From the NCBI GenBank assembly GCA_021204025.1, contig JAJQAC010000087.1, positions 1 to 64,000 of the forward strand: a stretch of DNA of 64,000 bases, written 5' to 3'. The notes beneath the pieces are model-generated. The model was not told where the DNA came from, did no database searches, and saw only the letters and a program-made list of their open reading frames with translations. A program made the position numbers and the translations under genes. The DNA is from Clostridiales bacterium (lineage in GTDB: Bacteria; Bacillota; Clostridia; Lachnospirales; Lachnospiraceae). This document shows positions 35,287 through 61,982 of this stretch, one piece after another (the first letter of the stretch is position 1; each line of letters opens with the position of its first letter).

Positions 35287-35700
35287 TTAAGCACTCTCCC
35301 CTTCTGTCACTTCCGTTACCTTCTTTTCAAACTCCCACAGTTTATCGATATAGACTTCCACGATCGTTCTGCAGTGTTCTTTCAGAATCGTTCCGTCATA
35401 ATCGTGCGTCATCTGATTGCGGATTTTCAGCATTTCCATCCACTCATCTCCCTCAATCAGTTCTGCCTGAAACGAGACCCTCAGCACTTCCCGCGGAGAA
35501 CCCGTAATAAAGTTCGTTATCGCATATCTCTGAATCAGAACATCCTTCATCACCTTCCACGCCAGATCAAATGTAATATTGAATTTTGCACCGGTTCCAC
35601 TTAAAACAAACGAATCTGACAGGTCACGGCCTTTGGCCTCATCAAGAGAGCTCAAAGAATTACAAAAAGATTCATATCTTTTCATAAATTTTTCGTCCAT
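35287..35700 (-). CDS. HEPN (HI0074-type nucleotidyltransferase substrate-binding) protein
   Basis: SGTGAKFNITFDLAWKVMKD; RNQMTHDYDG RX4HXY motif. Confidence 0.85.
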   Translation of the reverse strand: MDEKFMKRYESFCNSLSSLDEAKGRDLSDSFVLSGTGAKFNITFDLAWKVMKDVLIQRYAITNFITGSPREVLRVSFQAELIEGDEWMEMLKIRNQMTHDYDGTILKEHCRTIVEVYIDKLWEFEKKVTEVTEGESA

Positions 35701-50013: not shown

Positions 50014-50469
50014 TTATTTACTCTTGAGCAATTTGCTTACCTCTTCGACAAAGGTATTCACATCCTTAAACTCTCGGTAGACAGAAGCAAAACGGACATA
50101 CGCGACTTCATCGAGATCCTTTAACTTCTGCATCACCAGTTCTCCGATCACAGAAGTCTCAACTTCCTTTTCCTCCATCGTGAAGATCCGGTTCTCGATC
50201 TCGTCCACCACCTGGCCGATCTGCTGGATCGACACCGGGCGCTTGTGACAGGAACGGATAATGCCCGCCTCAATCTTAGAACGATCGTAAGCCTCGCGGG
50301 AACGATCCTTTTTAATGACCATCAGCGGTATCGTCTCCAGCTTTTCATATGTCGTGAAACGCTTTCCACATTTCGTACACTGACGGCGGCGGCGAATCGA
50401 ACTGTTATCATCCGCGGGCCGGGAATCGATCACTTTGGTATCGGCTTCACTGCAAAATGGGCATTTCAT
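50014..50469 (-). CDS. nrdR: Transcriptional repressor NrdR
   Basis: [42 protein letters not shown]. Confidence 0.97.
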
Positions 50470-50673
50470 CCTGATTTCTCCTCTTTCCTGTTCGCATTTC
50501 TCTGATCATTATAAAATAACAAGGAAGGATTCGCAAGAGAAAATTAGTCAGGCTTCCTATACATTCTGCAAAAATAACAAAGGATTCCCCACCCATAAAA
50601 GTTCTCTCATATTAAGGGATCAGGAAATCCTTATATCCAAATTATAAAATATTAGTTTAAATTTTATCTCTTA

Positions 50674-52179
50674 TTACTCACGCAAGGTACTAAGCGCATC
50701 TTCCACGGTCATTCCACCGGCTATCGCTTTTTTGCGCTCCGCATTTATCTTCTGTATCTGCTTCATACGTTCCCCACTTAAACTATAATGTTTCATAGCC
50801 CACAACGTTGCCAGCCATGCGGTCATAGGCAAAACACAAAACAACAGGATCACGAGGGTTTTCATTCCCGGCATATATGGCGTATTACTGTCCGGAAGCG
50901 TTGTTAATCCCACCGCAGCTACCGAAACTCCTACAATCGTAGCACTTAAAGATGAAATCAATTTATCAACCAGAAAAAACAACGTGCCAATAATACCTGG
51001 CATATAATTGCTGGTTCGATAGGTTTCATAATCCGAACAATCGGCTGTCATAGGAATAACCATATCCGCTGTACTATAATACGAACCATATCCGACACAA
51101 TAAAACAACACAAACAAGATTGTATACAGATTTATATTTCTCAATGACAGCGAAGTATGCGGATTTCCCGGCTCCCACAAAAGCAACAGAATGAATACCC
51201 CTATGTAAAGTACAAAAGCAAGTTTTGTAAACCGCACAAGGGAGGCTTTTTGACCCTTTTTTTGTGAAGTTCTGGCATTTAAAACGAAAAACGGAGCACT
51301 TGCCGCATAACCTATCACATATAGAGGTAAAAACAAACCGTTGTAATCTCCCATCATAGACGCATATAACATACAGGCTACGGAAGTATTAGTCGCTACT
51401 GCAAAGCCCAGCTTAGTGCCTGCCCCTGCAATCACCAGCATCTGTAACTCATGATTCCCTTTTAAAATGGAAATGCATTGTCTTAAATTTACTTTTGCAG
51501 CATCATTTCCTCCAATACCATAATTTTCCGGGCAGTCCTTTTCCCAGATTCCGACAATCGCAAACAACGTCAGAACAAAAGATAGTATGATCGCAATTGG
51601 AATCACGATATCAAAAAAGTGGGTATTTCCATATCCAATACGCCCTCCGACAATAACAGCTATCGCCTGGAACAACCCCATTCCCAACAGAGATGCAACT
51701 GTATTAAAAATAGTAAACAACGGTCTCTGTTTTGGATCATTTGTAATGCAGGTTTGTCCGGAACGGGTACAGGCCGTCTGAAAGGTGTACCCAATCACAT
51801 AAAGCATATAGATAAGGATAAATGATACATATCGCAGCCAAATCATCCCCTCAGGAATTCCTCTGGTTACAAAATAAAGTAAAACAGCACTAACCGCCAT
51901 GATTACATTTCCCAGAAGCATATACGGGCGAAATTTCCCATATTTTCCTGAAGTTTTATCTATAATCATACCGATTACAGGATCTGTAACCGCATCAAAC
52001 ACACGCATCAGTGTCACCATGCTGGTAGCAAATACAAGCATCAGGCCAAGGACACCATTTGCATAGTAAGCGATATAATTCGCGGTTAAAACAAAATAAA
52101 CATTTGTAGCGCCATTATTAAAAGAGAATAATAACAATTGCCATGATTTTGTATGATTAACCGAACAATTTTCTTCCAT
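50674..52179 (-). CDS. GPH-family (glycoside-pentoside-hexuronide) cation symporter
   Basis: 12-TM; RVFDAVTDPVIGMIIDKTSGKYGKFRPYML. Confidence 0.9.
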   Translation of the reverse strand: MEENCSVNHTKSWQLLLFSFNNGATNVYFVLTANYIAYYANGVLGLMLVFATSMVTLMRVFDAVTDPVIGMIIDKTSGKYGKFRPYMLLGNVIMAVSAVLLYFVTRGIPEGMIWLRYVSFILIYMLYVIGYTFQTACTRSGQTCITNDPKQRPLFTIFNTVASLLGMGLFQAIAVIVGGRIGYGNTHFFDIVIPIAIILSFVLTLFAIVGIWEKDCPENYGIGGNDAAKVNLRQCISILKGNHELQMLVIAGAGTKLGFAVATNTSVACMLYASMMGDYNGLFLPLYVIGYAASAPFFVLNARTSQKKGQKASLVRFTKLAFVLYIGVFILLLLWEPGNPHTSLSLRNINLYTILFVLFYCVGYGSYYSTADMVIPMTADCSDYETYRTSNYMPGIIGTLFFLVDKLISSLSATIVGVSVAAVGLTTLPDSNTPYMPGMKTLVILLFCVLPMTAWLATLWAMKHYSLSGERMKQIQKINAERKKAIAGGMTVEDALSTLRE

Positions 52180-52191
52180 ACATCTTCCTCC

Positions 52192-54117
52192 TTAAACCCA
52201 GTTTTTACTTTCTTTTTGCCTGTGCTTTGACAGTCTGTAAGAATGATCCGGAGCGTTTGTTTTCCTAATGTAAGAACTGTCTCTGCAGTTTCCTGCAACA
52301 GCCTCAAAATTATTCTCCCGATCTAATACTACCGAAAAAACAAAAACATGCTCTCCCCTGCAGATTTCAAGAAGCTGACCATTCTGATAAAGACTGACCT
52401 CCGGTTGATTGGAATAAACCCGAAGCTTAATTTTCGATTCTGTTCGATTTACATAACGTTTTCCGCAAATATGAACAAAAGGTTCTTCACTCCACCATGC
52501 TTTATAAAGATAGAAACTATCCTTTTTGATTTTCCTGTCAAACGTCACAACCCCCTTATGATTCATGCCAGGTTCACCTCCCTGATCCCTGGCGTCCGCC
52601 GCAAAATCGAACATATTCCAGAGATATGTTGCCCACAAAAATGGATGTCTCTGAAAGCATTTCAGCATATACTCATGATAAAGAGCCTGATATTCTTCTG
52701 AATGATCTCCCCGTCTGGGTCTTGATGAATGCAAATTTGGCATTCCTTCCGCCCCGTATTCCGAATAGCCAAGACAACGTTTCGGCCAGAATCTATGAAA
52801 TATATCCATAAAAAGATCGTTTAAGAAAAGTCCCGGCACATACCATCCCAGATAGAGATTATAGGACACTAAGTCCGAAACTTTATGTACCACAGGATCA
52901 AAAGGCATGCATACCGCATAACACGCCAGCGTAGTTAATCGGGTGGGATCTATCTGATGACATAAATCATTTAAAACCCTGTGGTTTTTCATCATATCTT
53001 TACGATTTCTTGTCGATATGGTAATCTCATTGGATATTCCCCAGCAGATTATGGAAGGATGATTATAATTCTGAACAATTAATTCTCTCATCTGTGCAAG
53101 AGTATTTTCATAACCTTCCGGCATATGCTCCGATATATATGGAATTTCCGTCCAGACAATCATCCCGTATTCATCACATAGATCATAGAAATACTGATCA
53201 TGCTGGTAATGGGCCAATCGTATTGTATTTGCACCCATTTCCAGGATCAACTCCATATCCTGTTTTAAATTCTCTTTCGTAACTGCATTTCCAATTCCTT
53301 TCCTGTCCTGATGTTTGGAAACGCCATGCAGCGGATAACTTACTCCATTTAAAAAGAATCCTTTATCTGGATCTACATAAAAATCTCGTATACCAAAACG
53401 ACAGCTCACCCGGTCTGTTATCTCGCTGCCCTTTTTTAGTTCTGCTATCGCTGTATAAAGGTATGGATCCCGCCGTCCATTCCAAAAATGAGGATTTTCT
53501 AACACAATCGTTACATTTACTCCCGTTCCTTTTCCTACCACCAATCCATTTTCTTCAAGGATTTTTATTTCTACTTCCCCATCTCCGCTTACAAATGTTT
53601 CTATCTGTATCGTTGCGCAACTTCCCTGTATCGTCGGTGTCACTTTGATACCATTTGCACCATTGTAATCTAATTCAAAATGATCGGAATCCACAACCAG
53701 TAAATTAACATCCCGATATATACCCCCATAAAATGTAAAATCTGCTTTCTGTGGATAAACCCGGCGATTGATACCATTATCCACCTCTACTTCAAGAATA
53801 TTTTTTTCTTCCAGAACGTTTGTGATATCTGCCCGAAAAGTGGAATATCCCCCTTCGTGGAAACACACTTCTTTCCGGTTAATCATAACTCTCGCACTTG
53901 AACTGACACCATGAAATTCCAGATACAGGCGATTCTTCCTGGTAAAATTTTCGGGCATACAGAATTCTTTTTTATACCTTCCTACACCCCGTAAATAATT
54001 ATTATTGCCATCCTGTCCATCCTTGTTATTCCATGTATGGGGGAGATTAACAATTTCACAAAAACCTTTCGGATCCACAAATTCCCAATCAAAATTCAGA
54101 TTAATATATTTTCTCAT
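52192..54117 (-). CDS. Glycoside hydrolase family 2 protein
   Basis: FDWEFVDP...NLPHTWNNKDGQ; CWGISNEI and SEYGAEG catalytic motifs. Confidence 0.92.
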   Translation of the reverse strand: MRKYINLNFDWEFVDPKGFCEIVNLPHTWNNKDGQDGNNNYLRGVGRYKKEFCMPENFTRKNRLYLEFHGVSSSARVMINRKEVCFHEGGYSTFRADITNVLEEKNILEVEVDNGINRRVYPQKADFTFYGGIYRDVNLLVVDSDHFELDYNGANGIKVTPTIQGSCATIQIETFVSGDGEVEIKILEENGLVVGKGTGVNVTIVLENPHFWNGRRDPYLYTAIAELKKGSEITDRVSCRFGIRDFYVDPDKGFFLNGVSYPLHGVSKHQDRKGIGNAVTKENLKQDMELILEMGANTIRLAHYQHDQYFYDLCDEYGMIVWTEIPYISEHMPEGYENTLAQMRELIVQNYNHPSIICWGISNEITISTRNRKDMMKNHRVLNDLCHQIDPTRLTTLACYAVCMPFDPVVHKVSDLVSYNLYLGWYVPGLFLNDLFMDIFHRFWPKRCLGYSEYGAEGMPNLHSSRPRRGDHSEEYQALYHEYMLKCFQRHPFLWATYLWNMFDFAADARDQGGEPGMNHKGVVTFDRKIKKDSFYLYKAWWSEEPFVHICGKRYVNRTESKIKLRVYSNQPEVSLYQNGQLLEICRGEHVFVFSVVLDRENNFEAVAGNCRDSSYIRKTNAPDHSYRLSKHRQKESKNWV

Positions 54118-54145
54118 TGTCTTCCTCAAATTTATATCAAAAAAC

Positions 54146-55450
54146 TTATTCATTCTCTTGTGGCAATGGTATCGCTATTTTTAAATCAAAACATTGATTC
54201 CGCACAGATATATCCAGATATCCTTCGTATTTTTTGACATTATGCTGTATGCTTTTCAGACCATATCCATGATAACCTTTGTGTATCTTCGTCGTTTCCG
54301 GGAATTCATCTTTCATATTTAATTTTCCATAAAGCGGGTTTGTAATATTGATAACCAGAAAATTATTTCTCGTATAAATAGAAATATCAATAAAGCGTTT
54401 TTCCGGTTCATCAAAATTGCGAACTGCTTCTATTGCATTATCCACAGCATTACCCAGTATCGCGTACAAATCCATTGGGTTAATGAAAACAAGACTTCTC
54501 CCATCCGCAACACAGTTGATCCGTATTTCATTGGCGTTGCAATACAGGCTTTTCTCTGTAAGTATCGTATCCAGAACCTCATTTCCTGTTTTAACGATAG
54601 ACTCGTAAATTTTTATTGACGATTCAATTTCAGTCAAATACTCTTCTCTCGACTTCGTATCGCTAATTTCCCGGATTGCGGCGATCTGATGTTTTAAATC
54701 ATGACATTTTTGGTTAATCAAATCAATATTTTCCCTTGTTAAGTCATACTGTACTTTCTGATTCTGTCTCAGCAGATTTAAAGTCAGAAGTTCCTTTTCT
54801 ATCTCCCCTTTTTTGAAAAGTTCCGTTAAAAGGTACAGCATCGTGACACAATAACACTGAACCAATGCGATGGACAACCATAAATGCTTCTCGTCCGCCC
54901 GGATAACGGATGTCAGTATAAAATAATACAACACCTCAAACACAATCCACAAACCGACAGCCAGACTCAGTTGCCGGGGACCGATCTGATAATGACCATC
55001 CACGGGCATGATCTTTGCCACTGTGAAATGTAAGACAACGCAACAAAACAGGTAAACAGCAATCATTAACAATTCCTGCTTTCCTTCAAATATCCCATCA
55101 ATTGGATAAATGCTTATAATGATTTTCCAAATGCCGGAAAAAAATTTTGCCGTAATCATCGACCAGATCGCCACATAAAGAGCATCTGACTTTCTACACT
55201 TTGCACACGCAAAAACCATCACCGAAACTGCCAGAAGCTGAAGAATCATTTTTAAAAATCCACAAGGGAATTTGAGCGAGATCATTTTTTCCAGTATAAG
55301 GCACGCAACAACCGCTCCCACAGAGGCAAAAATTCCCGGCCATACAGAATTCCTGTGTTCTAATGGATATAAATATACCATTCCAGCTGCCATAATAAAA
55401 AGGACAATGATCAAATGATTAAAATCGCCCTCTATCATATTACAGACCAC
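54146..55450 (-). CDS. GHKL-type sensor histidine kinase (AgrC-like architecture)
   Basis: Multi-TM N-term; INQKCHDLKHQIAAIRE H-box; GNAVDNAIEAVRN N-box. Confidence 0.92.
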   Translation of the reverse strand: MVCNMIEGDFNHLIIVLFIMAAGMVYLYPLEHRNSVWPGIFASVGAVVACLILEKMISLKFPCGFLKMILQLLAVSVMVFACAKCRKSDALYVAIWSMITAKFFSGIWKIIISIYPIDGIFEGKQELLMIAVYLFCCVVLHFTVAKIMPVDGHYQIGPRQLSLAVGLWIVFEVLYYFILTSVIRADEKHLWLSIALVQCYCVTMLYLLTELFKKGEIEKELLTLNLLRQNQKVQYDLTRENIDLINQKCHDLKHQIAAIREISDTKSREEYLTEIESSIKIYESIVKTGNEVLDTILTEKSLYCNANEIRINCVADGRSLVFINPMDLYAILGNAVDNAIEAVRNFDEPEKRFIDISIYTRNNFLVINITNPLYGKLNMKDEFPETTKIHKGYHGYGLKSIQHNVKKYEGYLDISVRNQCFDLKIAIPLPQENE

Positions 55451-56144
55451 CTCCGATATAACCCATTAAAGCTTTGATAAAAGCAGATTTATTGCGCCGA
55501 CTTATTTCAAGTCTTTCAGATCCTACCATAACAGTATTTTGTCTGACACCAGAAACATATTTCAAATTAATCAGATACCAGTAATTACATCTGGCAAAGT
55601 GATAATCGTTCAGAATACGTTCTGCTTCCTGCAAAGCTCCATAAACTGTATAAGTTCCCCTGATTGTATGATAATGAAGACGTTTTCCGTTTGATTCTAT
55701 ATAATAAATATCATCAGAATCAATCACCTGCTCTCCCACTTTGGCGGACAAAGTCAGTTTGACTGATCGTTTTTGTTTCAGTCTCTCAATCACTCTGGCT
55801 AGACGCAGGGCAAACTCATAATAATTTATGGGCTTTAGCACAAAGTCGAGCGCTCCTACAGAATACCCGTCTATCGCATATTGAGCCAGATTTGTGACAA
55901 AAACAATCGACACATATTCATCCTTCTTCCGTAAATATCTGGCAGCATCCATTCCATTCATCCCAGGCATCTCAATATCCAGAAAAATAATATCAAACGA
56001 CGACCTGCTCTCGGAAAAGGTAATTCCATCCTCGTAATTTTTTATTTCAAATACAATCCCATGTTCTTCCCCATACTGAATCAAATAATGCTCAATCTGT
56101 TTCTGAAATTCTATCTGATCTTCAACCACAGCAATCCTGTACAT
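55440..56144 (-). CDS. LytTR response regulator
   Basis: Receiver FDIIFLDIEMPGMNG; LytTR C-term IYYIESNGKRLHYHTIRGTYTVYGAL. Confidence 0.94.
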   Translation of the reverse strand: MYRIAVVEDQIEFQKQIEHYLIQYGEEHGIVFEIKNYEDGITFSESRSSFDIIFLDIEMPGMNGMDAARYLRKKDEYVSIVFVTNLAQYAIDGYSVGALDFVLKPINYYEFALRLARVIERLKQKRSVKLTLSAKVGEQVIDSDDIYYIESNGKRLHYHTIRGTYTVYGALQEAERILNDYHFARCNYWYLINLKYVSGVRQNTVMVGSERLEISRRNKSAFIKALMGYIGGGL

Positions 56145-56145
56145 A

Positions 56146-56850
56146 CTAAGCCCCTGTATAGTTTTTATATTCCTCCATCAATTCTTTTTTCCTCGCCCTG
56201 GAAACCGGAAGCCTGTTTTCACCAATTTCAACATAATCTGATCCTAATGCTGTAACATACTCTAAATTCACCAGGCACGAACGGTTGCAAATTTGAAACT
56301 GTTCACCCATAAACTGGTTTACCGCATTGCAAAACTGTCCTCGTATTTGAAAATTTCCCTCACGGGTATGATAAACCAGAGCATGATTCAACACTTCTAC
56401 AAAAAGCACCTCATTGATAGAAATAACTTCTACTCCTTTCGCAGTTTTGAGAATCAGCTTTTTCTTTTTACGACTGCTCCATTGTCTTACTATTTTCTGT
56501 AAAGCCCGTTCTAATTCTATTTTTTTCACCGGTTTACGTATAAAATCCGAGATATCCAGTTCATAACCTTGTACCGCATACTGCACCATGGATGTGACAA
56601 ATACCAGCATCAGATCCTTACTACGGCCACGGATACGTCTGGCCATTTCCAATCCATCTGTCTTTTTCAGATTAATTTCAAAGAAAAGCACATCAAACTT
56701 ATCACTTTCTCTTTCAAACTGTCCTTCATCCAAATATGTCTGAATTTTACACTCCAATTTCCGCTCCGCAAAAAATCTTGCGATTTCTCTTTTCAATGAC
56801 GAGAGCTGGGATTTATCATCATCCATGATTGCAATATGTATCATATTCAT
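56146..56850 (-). CDS. LytTR response regulator with atypical receiver (Glu at phospho-acceptor position)
   Basis: FDVLFFEINLKKTDGLEMARR; LytTR VLFVEVLNHALVYHTREGNFQIRGQF. Confidence 0.92.
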   Translation of the reverse strand: MNMIHIAIMDDDKSQLSSLKREIARFFAERKLECKIQTYLDEGQFERESDKFDVLFFEINLKKTDGLEMARRIRGRSKDLMLVFVTSMVQYAVQGYELDISDFIRKPVKKIELERALQKIVRQWSSRKKKKLILKTAKGVEVISINEVLFVEVLNHALVYHTREGNFQIRGQFCNAVNQFMGEQFQICNRSCLVNLEYVTALGSDYVEIGENRLPVSRARKKELMEEYKNYTGA

Positions 56851-56869
56851 TTATATCCTTTTCACTACT

Positions 56870-59800
56870 TTACTCGACTTCTATTCTCTTTTTTCGCTGA
56901 ATCATGTCAAACACCATCAATAAAACAGCAACTATAGTAAGTCCCCCGAAAACAGCCGTTACAGCATTAAGAGCTGTCTGCCACCATGGTGTAACAGTGA
57001 CGATCCTGCTTCCAGAAGCAATACCATCCATACCTCTGGAATGAACTACCGTATATAACACTCTGTGGGCACTTTCACGCATAGCCCACGCCATAGTAGC
57101 TGACTCTTTTTTCCCTCCAGGAGCATAAGGAACAAATTCTGATAATAAAATATCTTCTGTTACATCTGACAAATCTGCTCCGGTTTCCACACGTCCCGGA
57201 TAACCATCTGGCAAATCATTCCCTGCCAAAACTTCATGAGGCACCGACATGTAAGTAACAGCGTATTTGCCCTGCATATCTGTCACAGCAAATCCCGACA
57301 TACCAGCTTCTCCTCTGAGCCATTCTGTTATCAGCGCGTAACTACCACCTGACCAAAAAGCGCCTAAACGGTTAAACGAAGTCATAACGCATTTAGCGTC
57401 TGCATATAAAATCGGCAATTCAAATGCCCTTAAATATATTTCACGCATTGCCTGCTCGGTAGCCCAGGTTCCGATTCCACGACGGTTATTTTCCTGGTCG
57501 TTCATCACAAAATGTTTATTGTAAACATACACACCTTTGGACTGGATTCCCGCGGTCTCGCTTGCCACCATCAGCCCTGAAAGAATCGGATCTTCAGAAT
57601 AATACTCAAAGACCCTGCCGCCATAAGGAGTACGGTGAATGTTAAGACCAGTCCCATATATTCCCGAATATCCGGCCCACATGGCGTCCTCTCCAAATAA
57701 CTCACCAGCCTCTTTAATCAACAGATCATTCCAAGTTGCAGCCATAATTCCATTACAAGGAAACTGCGTTCCCGTTAAACTCTTATCTGGATCATCCGTA
57801 ATCGTCGCATAGCCATTCTGACCATTTCCATATGCCTGAGTCACGCCCGTAGAACCATTATGATCCAGTGTCTCCGGCTTTCCAATTTCTTCAATTCCTA
57901 CTGTCATACGCATACCAATTGAGACAATCTTAGTAAGTTGATCATAAGTAAGCTGATCCAAAAGGCTATCCCATAACGGATCCTCAAACGGAATTTCATT
58001 ACCATTTTCATCAACTCTCAGATCAATCAGCTGGAGTGCGGTATTTGTGGATCCCATAGTTGGGAATTCCATTCCTTCCGGATCAGCAGGAATATCGTCA
58101 TCATCCAACACAAGATCTTTTGCGATCTGATCGGTCATGGCAAGTCTTACATAATCATCACTAACCTTATCTCCATCCTCGTCTTTCCACAGACTCAAAG
58201 TTCCTTCCCAGTCATTTCTGCTACAGTAAGTAATTGTATTCTCTCCGCGACCTTCATAACGGTTCATATCCACAAAATCGAAACGTGCAGTTACTTCATT
58301 TCCAGTTCCCATCGCCATTCGATAAGTTTCCGTATCAAAAGCGTAGTCTATGTCAAATACCATCTGGGCATTTCCCTCGGCTGTCATTCCATCCGCCATT
58401 GTCTTTCCCTTTTTTGCCAGAATATTATTAACGGCATTATGGGCGTTCTCAGCAACCGTAAGATAATGAGTCCCTTCGCTCAATATATAGGTTCCCGCTC
58501 CATAAGCATCAAACGAGGTAAAATAATATTCCGGAATACTGATTGTCAGCTTCTGGTACTCACCTGGCTTCAGAGTATCTGTCTTTGCATAGCCAACCAG
58601 TTCAACTGAAGGCTTCTCTATCTGATTTTCCACATCATAGCTGGTATACGGTTTCTGCAAGTAAATCTCTACAGCTTCTTTTCCTTCCGCTTCACCAATA
58701 TTGGTCACCGTAACCGTTGCCTCATAGGTTGTTTCTCTTCCCTGCCCACCTTTTTCTACTGTAAAATCGGAATATTCAAAATTTGTATAACTCAAACCAT
58801 ATCCAAAAGGATAAGCTACCACTTCTTCATACTGATAATCTCCTGTATTCGGCGTACCAAGTATCTTATCCTCATACCGTGTTTCCGTATACCGATAACC
58901 GACATATACGCCTTCCTGATAGACTACATAGTTAATAAACCGTTCCGGATCTGCAAAAGTATACTGATCTGCATTCTCATAAACATATGATCCAAAATTT
59001 GCTATCGCCGGATTTAATCGATTATCCATCCAAAAAGTATCCGAGAGTTTTCCAGATGGAGTCGCATTCCCTTTGAGCAAATCAGCTACAGCATACAATC
59101 CGGTCTGACCCACCGCACCAATCCACAATGCAGCGTCAACACCATATTCATCATCATTGATGAACGCACAAGATAACGGATTGGGTGAATTGATCAATAC
59201 CACAATAGCTGAAAAACGACCCTCATCTTTCAATTCTTTCAAGCCCTTTAATATCGATAATTCCTCCGTATTTAAAGTAAGATAATCTCCATTAAGTCCA
59301 TCGGACTGATTTGCTACTTCATGATCTCCGCCCTCGCCGGCATTGCGGCCGATAATAAAAAGCGCTGCTTCTCCTGTTCCAAGACCAGACCCACAATTCT
59401 TTTCTATTTCCGACCACGGCGCCTCTCCGATCGAAATCGGGAAGCCGGTAACAGTATTACCTTCACCTATGGTTCTTCCGTAACCGCTGTTCGAGTACCA
59501 ATCATATAATTCATTGTTTATTGTAAACCCGACATTCTCAAGCGCTGTTTTATAGTCCGGCACATCATCCGATTCAATACCGGCAGATCCGGTTCCGCCG
59601 TAAAGCGGATCCGTCGATGCCGCACCAAACAGACTCAATTTTGTATCTTTCATTGGCAACACATCGTTGTCATTTTTCAGCAGCACCGCTCCTTCTTCTT
59701 CCACTCTTCGTACAATATCATATCCGGCTGCCTTTAATTCAGCAATATTCTCATATTCCGACTCATAATATCGAATAAATTCTGATGTATCCTCATGATT

Positions 59801-59956
59801 ATCATTGACAATCTCATAGGTTTTGACACCCAACGCCGAATTTACAGCAACGCTGTTTTCCGTAGCAATTGTTGTTGCCGTTACAAATACCGCAAGCCCA
59901 GCTGCCGTAATGTTTAAAAATATCTTTTTTAATGTCGTTTTACTTTTCCGCGCCAT
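56870..59956 (-). CDS. GH3 beta-glucosidase-like, circularly permuted domain order, N- and C-terminal TM segments
   Basis: GH3-C domain first, FnIII-like, then GH3-N with KHFVMNDQENNR and GFAVTDMQGKY; C-term TM then QRKKR. Confidence 0.9.
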   Translation of the reverse strand: MARKSKTTLKKIFLNITAAGLAVFVTATTIATENSVAVNSALGVKTYEIVNDNHEDTSEFIRYYESEYENIAELKAAGYDIVRRVEEEGAVLLKNDNDVLPMKDTKLSLFGAASTDPLYGGTGSAGIESDDVPDYKTALENVGFTINNELYDWYSNSGYGRTIGEGNTVTGFPISIGEAPWSEIEKNCGSGLGTGEAALFIIGRNAGEGGDHEVANQSDGLNGDYLTLNTEELSILKGLKELKDEGRFSAIVVLINSPNPLSCAFINDDEYGVDAALWIGAVGQTGLYAVADLLKGNATPSGKLSDTFWMDNRLNPAIANFGSYVYENADQYTFADPERFINYVVYQEGVYVGYRYTETRYEDKILGTPNTGDYQYEEVVAYPFGYGLSYTNFEYSDFTVEKGGQGRETTYEATVTVTNIGEAEGKEAVEIYLQKPYTSYDVENQIEKPSVELVGYAKTDTLKPGEYQKLTISIPEYYFTSFDAYGAGTYILSEGTHYLTVAENAHNAVNNILAKKGKTMADGMTAEGNAQMVFDIDYAFDTETYRMAMGTGNEVTARFDFVDMNRYEGRGENTITYCSRNDWEGTLSLWKDEDGDKVSDDYVRLAMTDQIAKDLVLDDDDIPADPEGMEFPTMGSTNTALQLIDLRVDENGNEIPFEDPLWDSLLDQLTYDQLTKIVSIGMRMTVGIEEIGKPETLDHNGSTGVTQAYGNGQNGYATITDDPDKSLTGTQFPCNGIMAATWNDLLIKEAGELFGEDAMWAGYSGIYGTGLNIHRTPYGGRVFEYYSEDPILSGLMVASETAGIQSKGVYVYNKHFVMNDQENNRRGIGTWATEQAMREIYLRAFELPILYADAKCVMTSFNRLGAFWSGGSYALITEWLRGEAGMSGFAVTDMQGKYAVTYMSVPHEVLAGNDLPDGYPGRVETGADLSDVTEDILLSEFVPYAPGGKKESATMAWAMRESAHRVLYTVVHSRGMDGIASGSRIVTVTPWWQTALNAVTAVFGGLTIVAVLLMVFDMIQRKKRIEVE

Positions 59957-60213
59957 TTTTTCCTCCTAATATTTATCCCATAACTTTCTTCTTCCATCCT
60001 CGTAATATATAATCAATCGAAAGATCTGACAAAATGAGGTGAAAGATCCTGTTTCCATAATTGACAGATGTGTAATGAACTTCATCTTAAGACTATTGTA
60101 GCTGATAATGCGGAATCAGTAATTTTAAAACCCTTATCTTTTAAAATTCGTCATTTCATCTGTCGATAATGGAATTATAGCCAACTTTTTAAGAGAAATC
60201 CACAATTATGTAA

Positions 60214-60245
60214 CAAGTGGTCATTTTTCAAGCGCAAATGGTCGT
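60214..60245 (+). promoter_or_regulatory. Direct repeat CAAGTGGTCAT / CAAATGGTCGT, 21-bp spacing, candidate LytTR site
   Basis: Read directly; 8 bp upstream of a TTGACA; between GH3 and the divergent 60376 gene. Confidence 0.5.
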
Positions 60246-60375
60246 TCTATTTTATTGACAAATTTACCATAAAATGAAATAATAATATCAATTCTTTTGA
60301 CATTAGTACTAAATCGGTATAATGCGGTAATGTCTCCGAGAAGCGCGTATATCAATTATTTCCAAGGAGGTTTTT

Positions 60376-60765
60376 ATGCTTTCAAATATTTTTTCTGACA
60401 AAAAAATCGGATTTTATCTGTCCGGTCTTGCAGCAATACTTTCTCTCGTTACTGCAATTATCTATCAATTGACTTACTATAACAACGCTGATTATTCTTC
60501 TTCTGTTTTTGCAATACTGCTTATTGCCTTTCCTGCAGCTCTGATTCTGACTTTGCTCAGATTAGAAGCCTTTGTACCTGCAATTGTTACTCTCATAATC
60601 GGCATTGGCGCCTTAAGATTTATTTACGCCATGTATCTGGAAATGTCTGTCGTTTTGGTCGGCATCGATAAATCAGCTTTCGATCCGCAATTTATCGTTT
60701 GCAGCGTTCTAATGATATTAGGATTCATAATGGGAGAGATTTCCATTTATACTCCGGTCAAATAA
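60376..60765 (+). CDS. Small hydrophobic membrane protein (~4 TM)
   Basis: AAGGAGG RBS; hydrophobicity. Confidence 0.75.
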   Translation: MLSNIFSDKKIGFYLSGLAAILSLVTAIIYQLTYYNNADYSSSVFAILLIAFPAALILTLLRLEAFVPAIVTLIIGIGALRFIYAMYLEMSVVLVGIDKSAFDPQFIVCSVLMILGFIMGEISIYTPVK

Positions 60766-60784
60766 TTGCCTTATGAGCTAAATT

Positions 60785-60861
60785 GCATTTTCATTTGATC
60801 TAAAAATAGCGCTAAACGATCTGCAACATTATTTGCTGAACCGTTTAGCGCCCTATAATTC
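60785..60861 (-). terminator. Intrinsic terminator distal to the ymxH 3'-end copy
   Basis: Minus: GGCGCTAAACG ... CGTTTAGCGCT ATTTTT. Confidence 0.7.
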
Positions 60862-60872
60862 TTACAGAATCA

Positions 60873-60911
60873 GACACACCTTCTCCACATCCTTCAGTTC
60901 CCGGATCTCTA
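60873..60911 (-). repeat. Distal copy of ymxH 3' end (direct repeat 1)
   Basis: 39 bp identical to 61727..61765; still encodes (V)EIRELKDVEKVCLIL-stop. Confidence 0.95.
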
Positions 60912-61247
60912 TCAAGTTATATGATTTAATTGTTCGATCAATTCCTGCAATTCCTCAAATACAACATCCACTATAATATTCCAATTCGTTCCATCATAAT
61001 CATGAACAAGACGATGTCTCAGTCCCGATATCATCGCCCATGGGATTTCATTATGACGTTCTTTAAAATCATCCGACAAATGATACACTTGTTCACCAAT
61101 ATTGTATAAAGGAGTCGTAACAAGCCACTGTAAAGGGTACTCTTTTATCAAATCCTCTTTTGTAATGTTTTCCTTTTTTATATAATCATAAAGTTTCTGC
61201 GAGTACTCCTTGATTTTTCGAATCCGTTGCTCGTCCGAATATTTCAT
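60912..61247 (-). CDS. HepT-like HEPN ribonuclease toxin
   Basis: GLRHRLVHDYDG RX4HXY; overlaps MNT stop by 4 bp. Confidence 0.9.
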   Translation of the reverse strand: MKYSDEQRIRKIKEYSQKLYDYIKKENITKEDLIKEYPLQWLVTTPLYNIGEQVYHLSDDFKERHNEIPWAMISGLRHRLVHDYDGTNWNIIVDVVFEELQELIEQLNHIT

Positions 61248-61546
61248 GCGACAAGTAACCTCTCTTTCATAATTGTCTGATAAAACATACTATCCTGATT
61301 AACCTCATGAATTTCAAAAACGTCCACCTCTTTGCCAAAAGCTTTTCTCAATTCTTCTGCTACAGCAAAAATCATAGTCAATCTAAATTGATCACCACCA
61401 AAAACCAGGAAATCCAGGTCGCTCTCTTTCGTCGCCTCTCCTCTTGCATAAGAACCGAATAAATATATTTCCTTTATACCGTACTTAGACGCAATTGGCC
61501 GTACAATTTCTACTATTTTTTCAAATGTTAATGTGTCATTGTCCAT
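61244..61546 (-). CDS. MntA-like minimal nucleotidyltransferase antitoxin
   Basis: LFGSYARGEATKESDLDFLVFG. Confidence 0.9.
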   Translation of the reverse strand: MDNDTLTFEKIVEIVRPIASKYGIKEIYLFGSYARGEATKESDLDFLVFGGDQFRLTMIFAVAEELRKAFGKEVDVFEIHEVNQDSMFYQTIMKERLLVA

Positions 61547-61715
61547 AATATACAGCCTCCCTGCCCTTTTTAAACAAATACCGTTCTTTTGCATACGTAT
61601 AAACAAGTTTTTATATTTAAATTCATGAAAAGTTTAAAATTTCGGATCAATTTTTTCCTTTATATTTCCCGATTATTATAATTATTATAACTCGCAAAGA
61701 GAGGAAAAACAACTC

Positions 61716-61982
61716 TCACAAAATCGGACACACCTTCTCCACATCCTTCAGTTCCCGGATCTCTACCAGAATAATATCCTTTCCAATCTGTTTTACATCG
61801 CAGAAAGGAATCACATACTCCTTTTCTCTGCCAAAGATCCCCGCCAGGCAGCCGGGCCCCGGGACAATCAGATGAGTAATACAGCCGCCTGCCGGATCAA
61901 ATTCGACATCCCCGACAAATCCCAGGCGCTTACAATCACAGACATTGATGACTTCTTTTTTCTTCATATCAAAAATGCGCAT
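61716..61982 (-). CDS. YlmC/YmxH family sporulation protein (PRC-barrel)
   Basis: MRIFDMKKKEVINVCDCKRLGFVGDVEFDPAGGCITHLIVPGPG. Confidence 0.92.
   Translation of the reverse strand: MRIFDMKKKEVINVCDCKRLGFVGDVEFDPAGGCITHLIVPGPGCLAGIFGREKEYVIPFCDVKQIGKDIILVEIRELKDVEKVCPIL
61727..61765 (-). repeat. In-gene copy of ymxH 3' end (direct repeat 2)
   Basis: 39 bp identical to 60873..60911. Confidence 0.95.

Follow-up and report, generated by a model that had tools for sequence, protein, structure and literature searches.

It has long been asked how chromosomal toxin-antitoxin (TA) pairs spread when no vehicle can be seen. For restriction-modification (R-M) gene pairs, insertion accompanied by long target duplications was reportedly described in the primary studies of Nobusato et al. 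2000 and Furuta et al. 2010. Kobayashi and colleagues reportedly gave the name insertion with long target duplication to such events at inserted R-M gene pairs. A review (PMC3874152) gives the duplications as "in the order of 100 bp"; the same work is summarized in PMC3031569 and PMC1643837. Direct repeats at gene 3′ ends with no recombination genes are also found in CIMEs, or integrative elements that have decayed between their attL and attR sites (discussed, for example, in PMC7563491). As to the cargo considered here, the signature motifs of type VII HepT/MntA TA systems, RX4HXY in the HEPN protein and GSX10DXD in the MNT protein, were described in PMC7641770. In a partial literature search, we found no paper describing TA pairs with a long target duplication.

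We analyzed a 64,000-nucleotide stretch of DNA from a Clostridiales bacterium (here called the window), in which a HepT/MntA-like pair lies behind ymxH and is enclosed by two copies of the ymxH 3′ end. The features of the locus are as follows.

50014..50469, minus strand: nrdR, ancestrally the gene that follows ymxH, by congener comparison
50545..60856: acquired 10.3-kb segment between the ymxH 3′-end copy and nrdR, absent from G006, comprising a glycoside-use cluster with the next six entries
50674-52179: GPH transporter
52192-54153: GH2, near LacZ4-type beta-glucuronidase
54146-55450: GHKL sensor kinase
55440-56850: two LytTR regulators
56870-59956: GH3
60376-60765, plus strand: small membrane-like ORF
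60808..60852, minus strand: rho-independent terminator-like hairpin and T-run, past repeat copy 2 (fold -24.5 kcal/mol, z -6.4)
60857..60914, minus strand: repeat copy 2, duplicated ymxH 3′ end (last ~51 nt, VEIRELKDVEKVCLIL and stop), with a sequence specific to the G000/G006 lineage
60912..61247, minus strand: HepT-like HEPN RNase toxin, 111 aa (PF01934, E 2.2e-16), with RX4HXY (RHRLVHDY) at residue 77
61244..61546, minus strand: MntA-like antitoxin (MNT nucleotidyltransferase), 100 aa, with GSX10DXD (GSYARGEATKESDLD) at residue 31
61547..61710, minus strand: TA leader, AT-rich (27% GC), non-coding, with promoter-like matches; presumed promoter
61711..61768, minus strand: repeat copy 1, the final ~53 nt of ymxH plus the first nt past its stop, with the same end as G006 through the stop codon
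61716..61991, minus strand: ymxH (YlmC/YmxH-family PRC-barrel sporulation protein), intact, with native 3′ end CPIL-TGA

The MNT, HEPN and ymxH genes lie where the original prediction had placed them. The ymxH product matches Pfam PF05239, scores above the cut-off of TIGR02888 and is 97% identical to its counterpart in the nearest relative, G006. The two TA genes share a four-base overlap and lie on the same strand as ymxH. The antitoxin matches PF18765/PF01909 (Polbeta/NTP_transf_2; E 1.7e-14 for PF01909) as well as the solved MntA structure 5yep (E 4.5e-6). As in the described type VII systems (PMC7641770), MNT lies upstream of HEPN and overlaps it, both motifs are present and the domains are of the PF01909 type and PF01934; the pair differs from them in falling under the NCBIfam equivalog cut-offs, with 55 versus 60 bits for MntA (NF047752) and 28.8 versus 60 bits for HepT. 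Because the score is just below the cut-off for MntA and well below it for HepT, we regard the pair as a divergent but apparently complete HepT/MntA type VII system whose signature motifs are intact. If it works as in Shewanella, which is probable, MntA would adenylylate the RX4HXY tyrosine of HepT and so silence the RNase, and loss of the pair would be penalized. The GC content of the pair (34 to 36%) contrasts with that of the surrounding chromosome (about 50%) and of the glycoside cluster (40%).

The positions 60857-60914 and 61711-61768 were found by repeat search to form a direct repeat of 58 nt with 53/58 identities (91%) and a spacing of 854. The original prediction of a 39-nt repeat at this spacing, with similarity reaching beyond the core, was thus borne out: the central 39 nt are identical in both copies, and the copies match each other by BLASTN with E about 1e-18. 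A 20-nt repeat probe allowing up to 3 mismatches occurred twice in the window, compared with 0.01 occurrences expected in shuffles, and the whole genome holds only these two copies, the next best match having E about 0.01. The five mismatches gather at both ends, leaving 39 nt as the longest identical run (p about 0.015); this arrangement would also be in keeping with recombinase core sites or with gene conversion, and leaves room for either. Both copies encode the same kind of C-terminus, CPIL-stop in ymxH and CLIL-stop in the copy, and the far copy is followed by the hairpin and T-run, as had been anticipated. Also in line with that account, the repeats enclose only MNT and HEPN, with no transposase or integrase in the TA unit; copy 2 opens with the hepT stop codon, and the repeat similarity ends exactly there. 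Restoration of the gene's 3′ end by an incoming element, as suggested there, is not established. Up to and including the stop codon, the ymxH end adjoining the TA pair (CCGATTTTGTGA) matches the G006 end without a difference, whereas copy 2 reads CTGATTCTGTAA, so that the changes sit in the far copy. The intact ymxH therefore looks native, and nothing points to incoming DNA as the source of its end.

In 15/20 inspected congeners nrdR directly follows ymxH, and in G006 about 100 bp separate the two genes. In the window this distance is 11.2 kb and takes in the TA unit, the ymxH 3′-end copy, the terminator and the 10.3-kb glycoside-use cluster; homology to G006 stops at 50544 and restarts at ymxH. 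The ymxH-nrdR interval of the window holds no integrase, in agreement with the original prediction that none is present, and none was seen at the inspected loci of the 20 congeners. Relatives of parts of the cluster sit elsewhere in five congeners, at 65 to 74% identity. Among the inspected congeners, no other member of the genus has the TA pair at ymxH, and none shows a duplicated ymxH end without the pair; the other 22 ymxH loci of the genus each lack a second copy. In the comparison for empty sites proposed earlier, relatives with one ymxH end and no TA pair do exist, but they also lack the 10.3-kb cluster, so a clean TA-only empty site was not seen at ymxH itself. The most economical order of events would have the glycoside cluster arriving first and the TA unit second. 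We note that the DNA behind ymxH (61640-61715) weakly resembles the nrdR promoter region (50500-50560) in the same order; its identity as a second nrdR promoter copy was suggestive but not significant (p 0.06 to 0.09), and a longer duplication including this promoter is possible.

Relatives of the pair were collected by a GTDB genome scan, in which 80 loci were retained of roughly 180 relatives, the HEPN relatives having 61 to 83% identity. Among the 80 retained loci, the closest relatives lie in unrelated places. Going by our reading of the translations, one is presumably just behind a pyruvate carboxylase gene (L065), three between what we take to be nth and a pfkB-type gene (L066-L068) and one within a presumed lacZ-galT pair (L072). 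The idea of a minimal TA cassette stands insofar as the pair is acquired, solitary and integrase-less and has its closest relatives in such unrelated places. A locus was scored as repeat-flanked if it had a direct repeat with one copy upstream of the TA genes and its partner no more than 120 bp downstream of the HEPN stop. Such repeats were present at 6/74 testable TA loci, most of the 74 having none. Windows of equal size from the same DNA gave a rate of 0.67% (p about 1e-5); other ORFs gave 2.4% (p 0.02), and against this second control the excess is only 3.5-fold. The enrichment is thus real but modest, and two of the six repeat-flanked loci (L090 and L113) probably represent dispersed repeats. 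The duplicated sequences of the six loci mostly share no att-like core, G000-L086 being the only pair above shuffles. Four candidates were dropped or set aside: L099, whose repeat is a dispersed promoter-like sequence; L087, where relatives are rearranged at the site; L086, whose two flanks are on different contigs in relatives; and L112, an ambiguous case between tRNA-Asn copies, relatives of which carry several tRNA-Asn copies with other cargo. The tRNA-Asn copies bracket differing cargo in relatives (L112, L223, L224), and this site is a likely hotspot that is ambiguous with respect to the TA pair.

Precise one-copy empty sites exist for two members of the TA family. At L084, a bare MNT-HEPN unit is inserted behind a Rieske-domain gene and is flanked by 48-nt copies of that gene's terminator hairpin, of which the genome has only two full copies. 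The relatives G464 and G465 carry one copy and no TA unit; in the alignment their sites are uninterrupted, the two pieces of the L084 query overlapping on the single copy by 41 and 50 nt. At L136, the duplication has 53/53 identities and covers the 3′ end, stop codon included, of a gene that weakly matches a CARF domain; at this site G426, G434 and G429 each carry a single copy with nothing inserted. G433 has a TA-like XRE + IrrE/Fic pair between two copies there, and further relatives hold Fic, RelB/YafQ-like or other defense-like genes at this position. Since L136 keeps the XRE gene, its duplication may stem from the Fic pair and have been inherited later by an invading HepT pair. The duplicated sequences differ from site to site (ymxH, L084, L136), and no recombinase was seen in the L084- and L136-type cassettes examined.

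Two side observations were made at these sites. A ~90-nt element upstream of the L084 insertion (L084:3720-3815) is repeated dozens of times in the genomes of the genus. At an intergenic site between gene A and a citrate-lyase-alpha-like gene in one genus, each relative carries a different TA- or defense-like set, with no integrase seen: XRE + IrrE/Fic in L178 (G433), Fic in L179 (G428), RelB/YafQ-like in L180 (G427) and RhuM-like plus dynamin-like GTPases in L181 (G436). Some gene names at the L136-site relatives come from reading translations.

Taken together, we think it rather probable, with appreciable room for doubt, that a solitary TA unit inserted at the ymxH 3′ end with a long target duplication, as proposed for R-M systems. 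The inserted unit would consist of leader, mntA and hepT, about 0.8 kb with no recombinase, and about 55 to 60 bp of the target would have been duplicated upon insertion. Duplication of the target would have left ymxH intact, with its old 3′ end and terminator now behind hepT. That the duplication arose at insertion is our inference; because the duplicated sequences at the six loci mostly share no core, we favor a repair- or replication-linked event, which might have joined a linear or circular TA fragment to the target. The insert would then be kept by TA addiction, favoring cells that retain it. The relatives lend good support to the view that a minimal TA unit is mobile. The locus resembles the R-M insertions in that a bare addiction-type gene pair with no transposase or integrase has apparently moved independently of any known element and is flanked by a long direct repeat of the target. 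The target is single-copy in relatives, cleanly so for L084 and L136, while at ymxH the one-copy relatives also lack the 10.3-kb cluster. The differences are the cargo, here a type VII HepT/MntA pair, the shorter duplications of 48 to 58 nt, compared with the quoted order of 100 bp, and the position of the best cases, which is at the 3′ ends of genes or at terminators.

The main rival to insertion with target duplication invokes a trans-acting integrase directed at gene 3′ ends. The repeats would then be attL and attR of a tyrosine-recombinase element that targets such ends, and the TA pair would have been moved as a cassette by an integrase supplied in trans, or would be what is left of a larger, decayed, CIME-like element. 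We regard this as unlikely, though it deserves serious weight: the site is at a gene 3′ end with the gene intact, the 39-nt core is identical while the outer parts diverge, and one family member (L112) lies between tRNA-Asn copies. Like CIMEs, the locus combines gene 3′-end direct repeats with a lack of recombination genes; unlike CIMEs, no autonomous parent element or integrase was found for these sites, and the flanking sequences differ at each of them. Arguing further against att sites, neither the ymxH-nrdR interval nor the examined cassettes hold a recombinase, the duplicated sequences show the general lack of a common core described above, and the target at L084 is a terminator hairpin. 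In addition, the end of copy 1 is the native G006 end, with no sign of an element-supplied gene end. The ymxH core, exact or degenerate, was absent from 2.9 million viral contigs, and a search of viral contigs for ymxH homologues gave none.

Two other histories place the duplication elsewhere or earlier. The TA pair, the ymxH 3′-end copy and the glycoside cluster could have arrived as one 11-kb fragment by homology-driven capture, from a near-relative donor that already had all of this behind ymxH, with crossovers in ymxH and near nrdR leaving the second end. This would explain why all extra DNA sits in the single ymxH-nrdR gap and why the copy-2 core is closer to its own lineage than to other congeners. 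We nevertheless consider it improbable, as the TA pair and the cluster differ in composition, no inspected congener has the TA pair at ymxH and the relatives of the cluster lie elsewhere at 65 to 74% identity; moreover, capture merely shifts the duplication event to another genome. We give very little credence to the second history, in which all or part of ymxH was duplicated in tandem long ago, the TA pair fell in later and the second copy eroded to its last ~55 nt. Copy 2 does consist purely of ymxH 3′-end sequence from the same lineage, but a second copy is missing from all 22 other ymxH loci of the genus. The similarity also stops exactly at the hepT stop codon, and erosion would not leave a single 39-nt identical block.

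The one-copy empty sites beside duplications of 48 to 58 nt suggest that a TA pair alone can be an insertion unit, which parallels the proposal for restriction-modification genes. It also opens the mechanism to testing, both for the repair or replication path behind a ~50-bp duplication and for selection of the duplication through addiction. More tentatively, and at somewhat less than even chances, this HepT/MntA subfamily, found in gut Clostridia and other bacteria, may consist of "naked" mobile units with no enzyme of their own; units of about 0.75 to 0.8 kb, made up of leader, antitoxin and toxin, would have inserted repeatedly behind genes, with about 50 bp of any target struck being duplicated. 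We also note that the window encodes a second, different HEPN-type protein at 35287-35700 (minus strand), which is an HI0074 family nucleotidyltransferase-binding subunit (TIGR01987).
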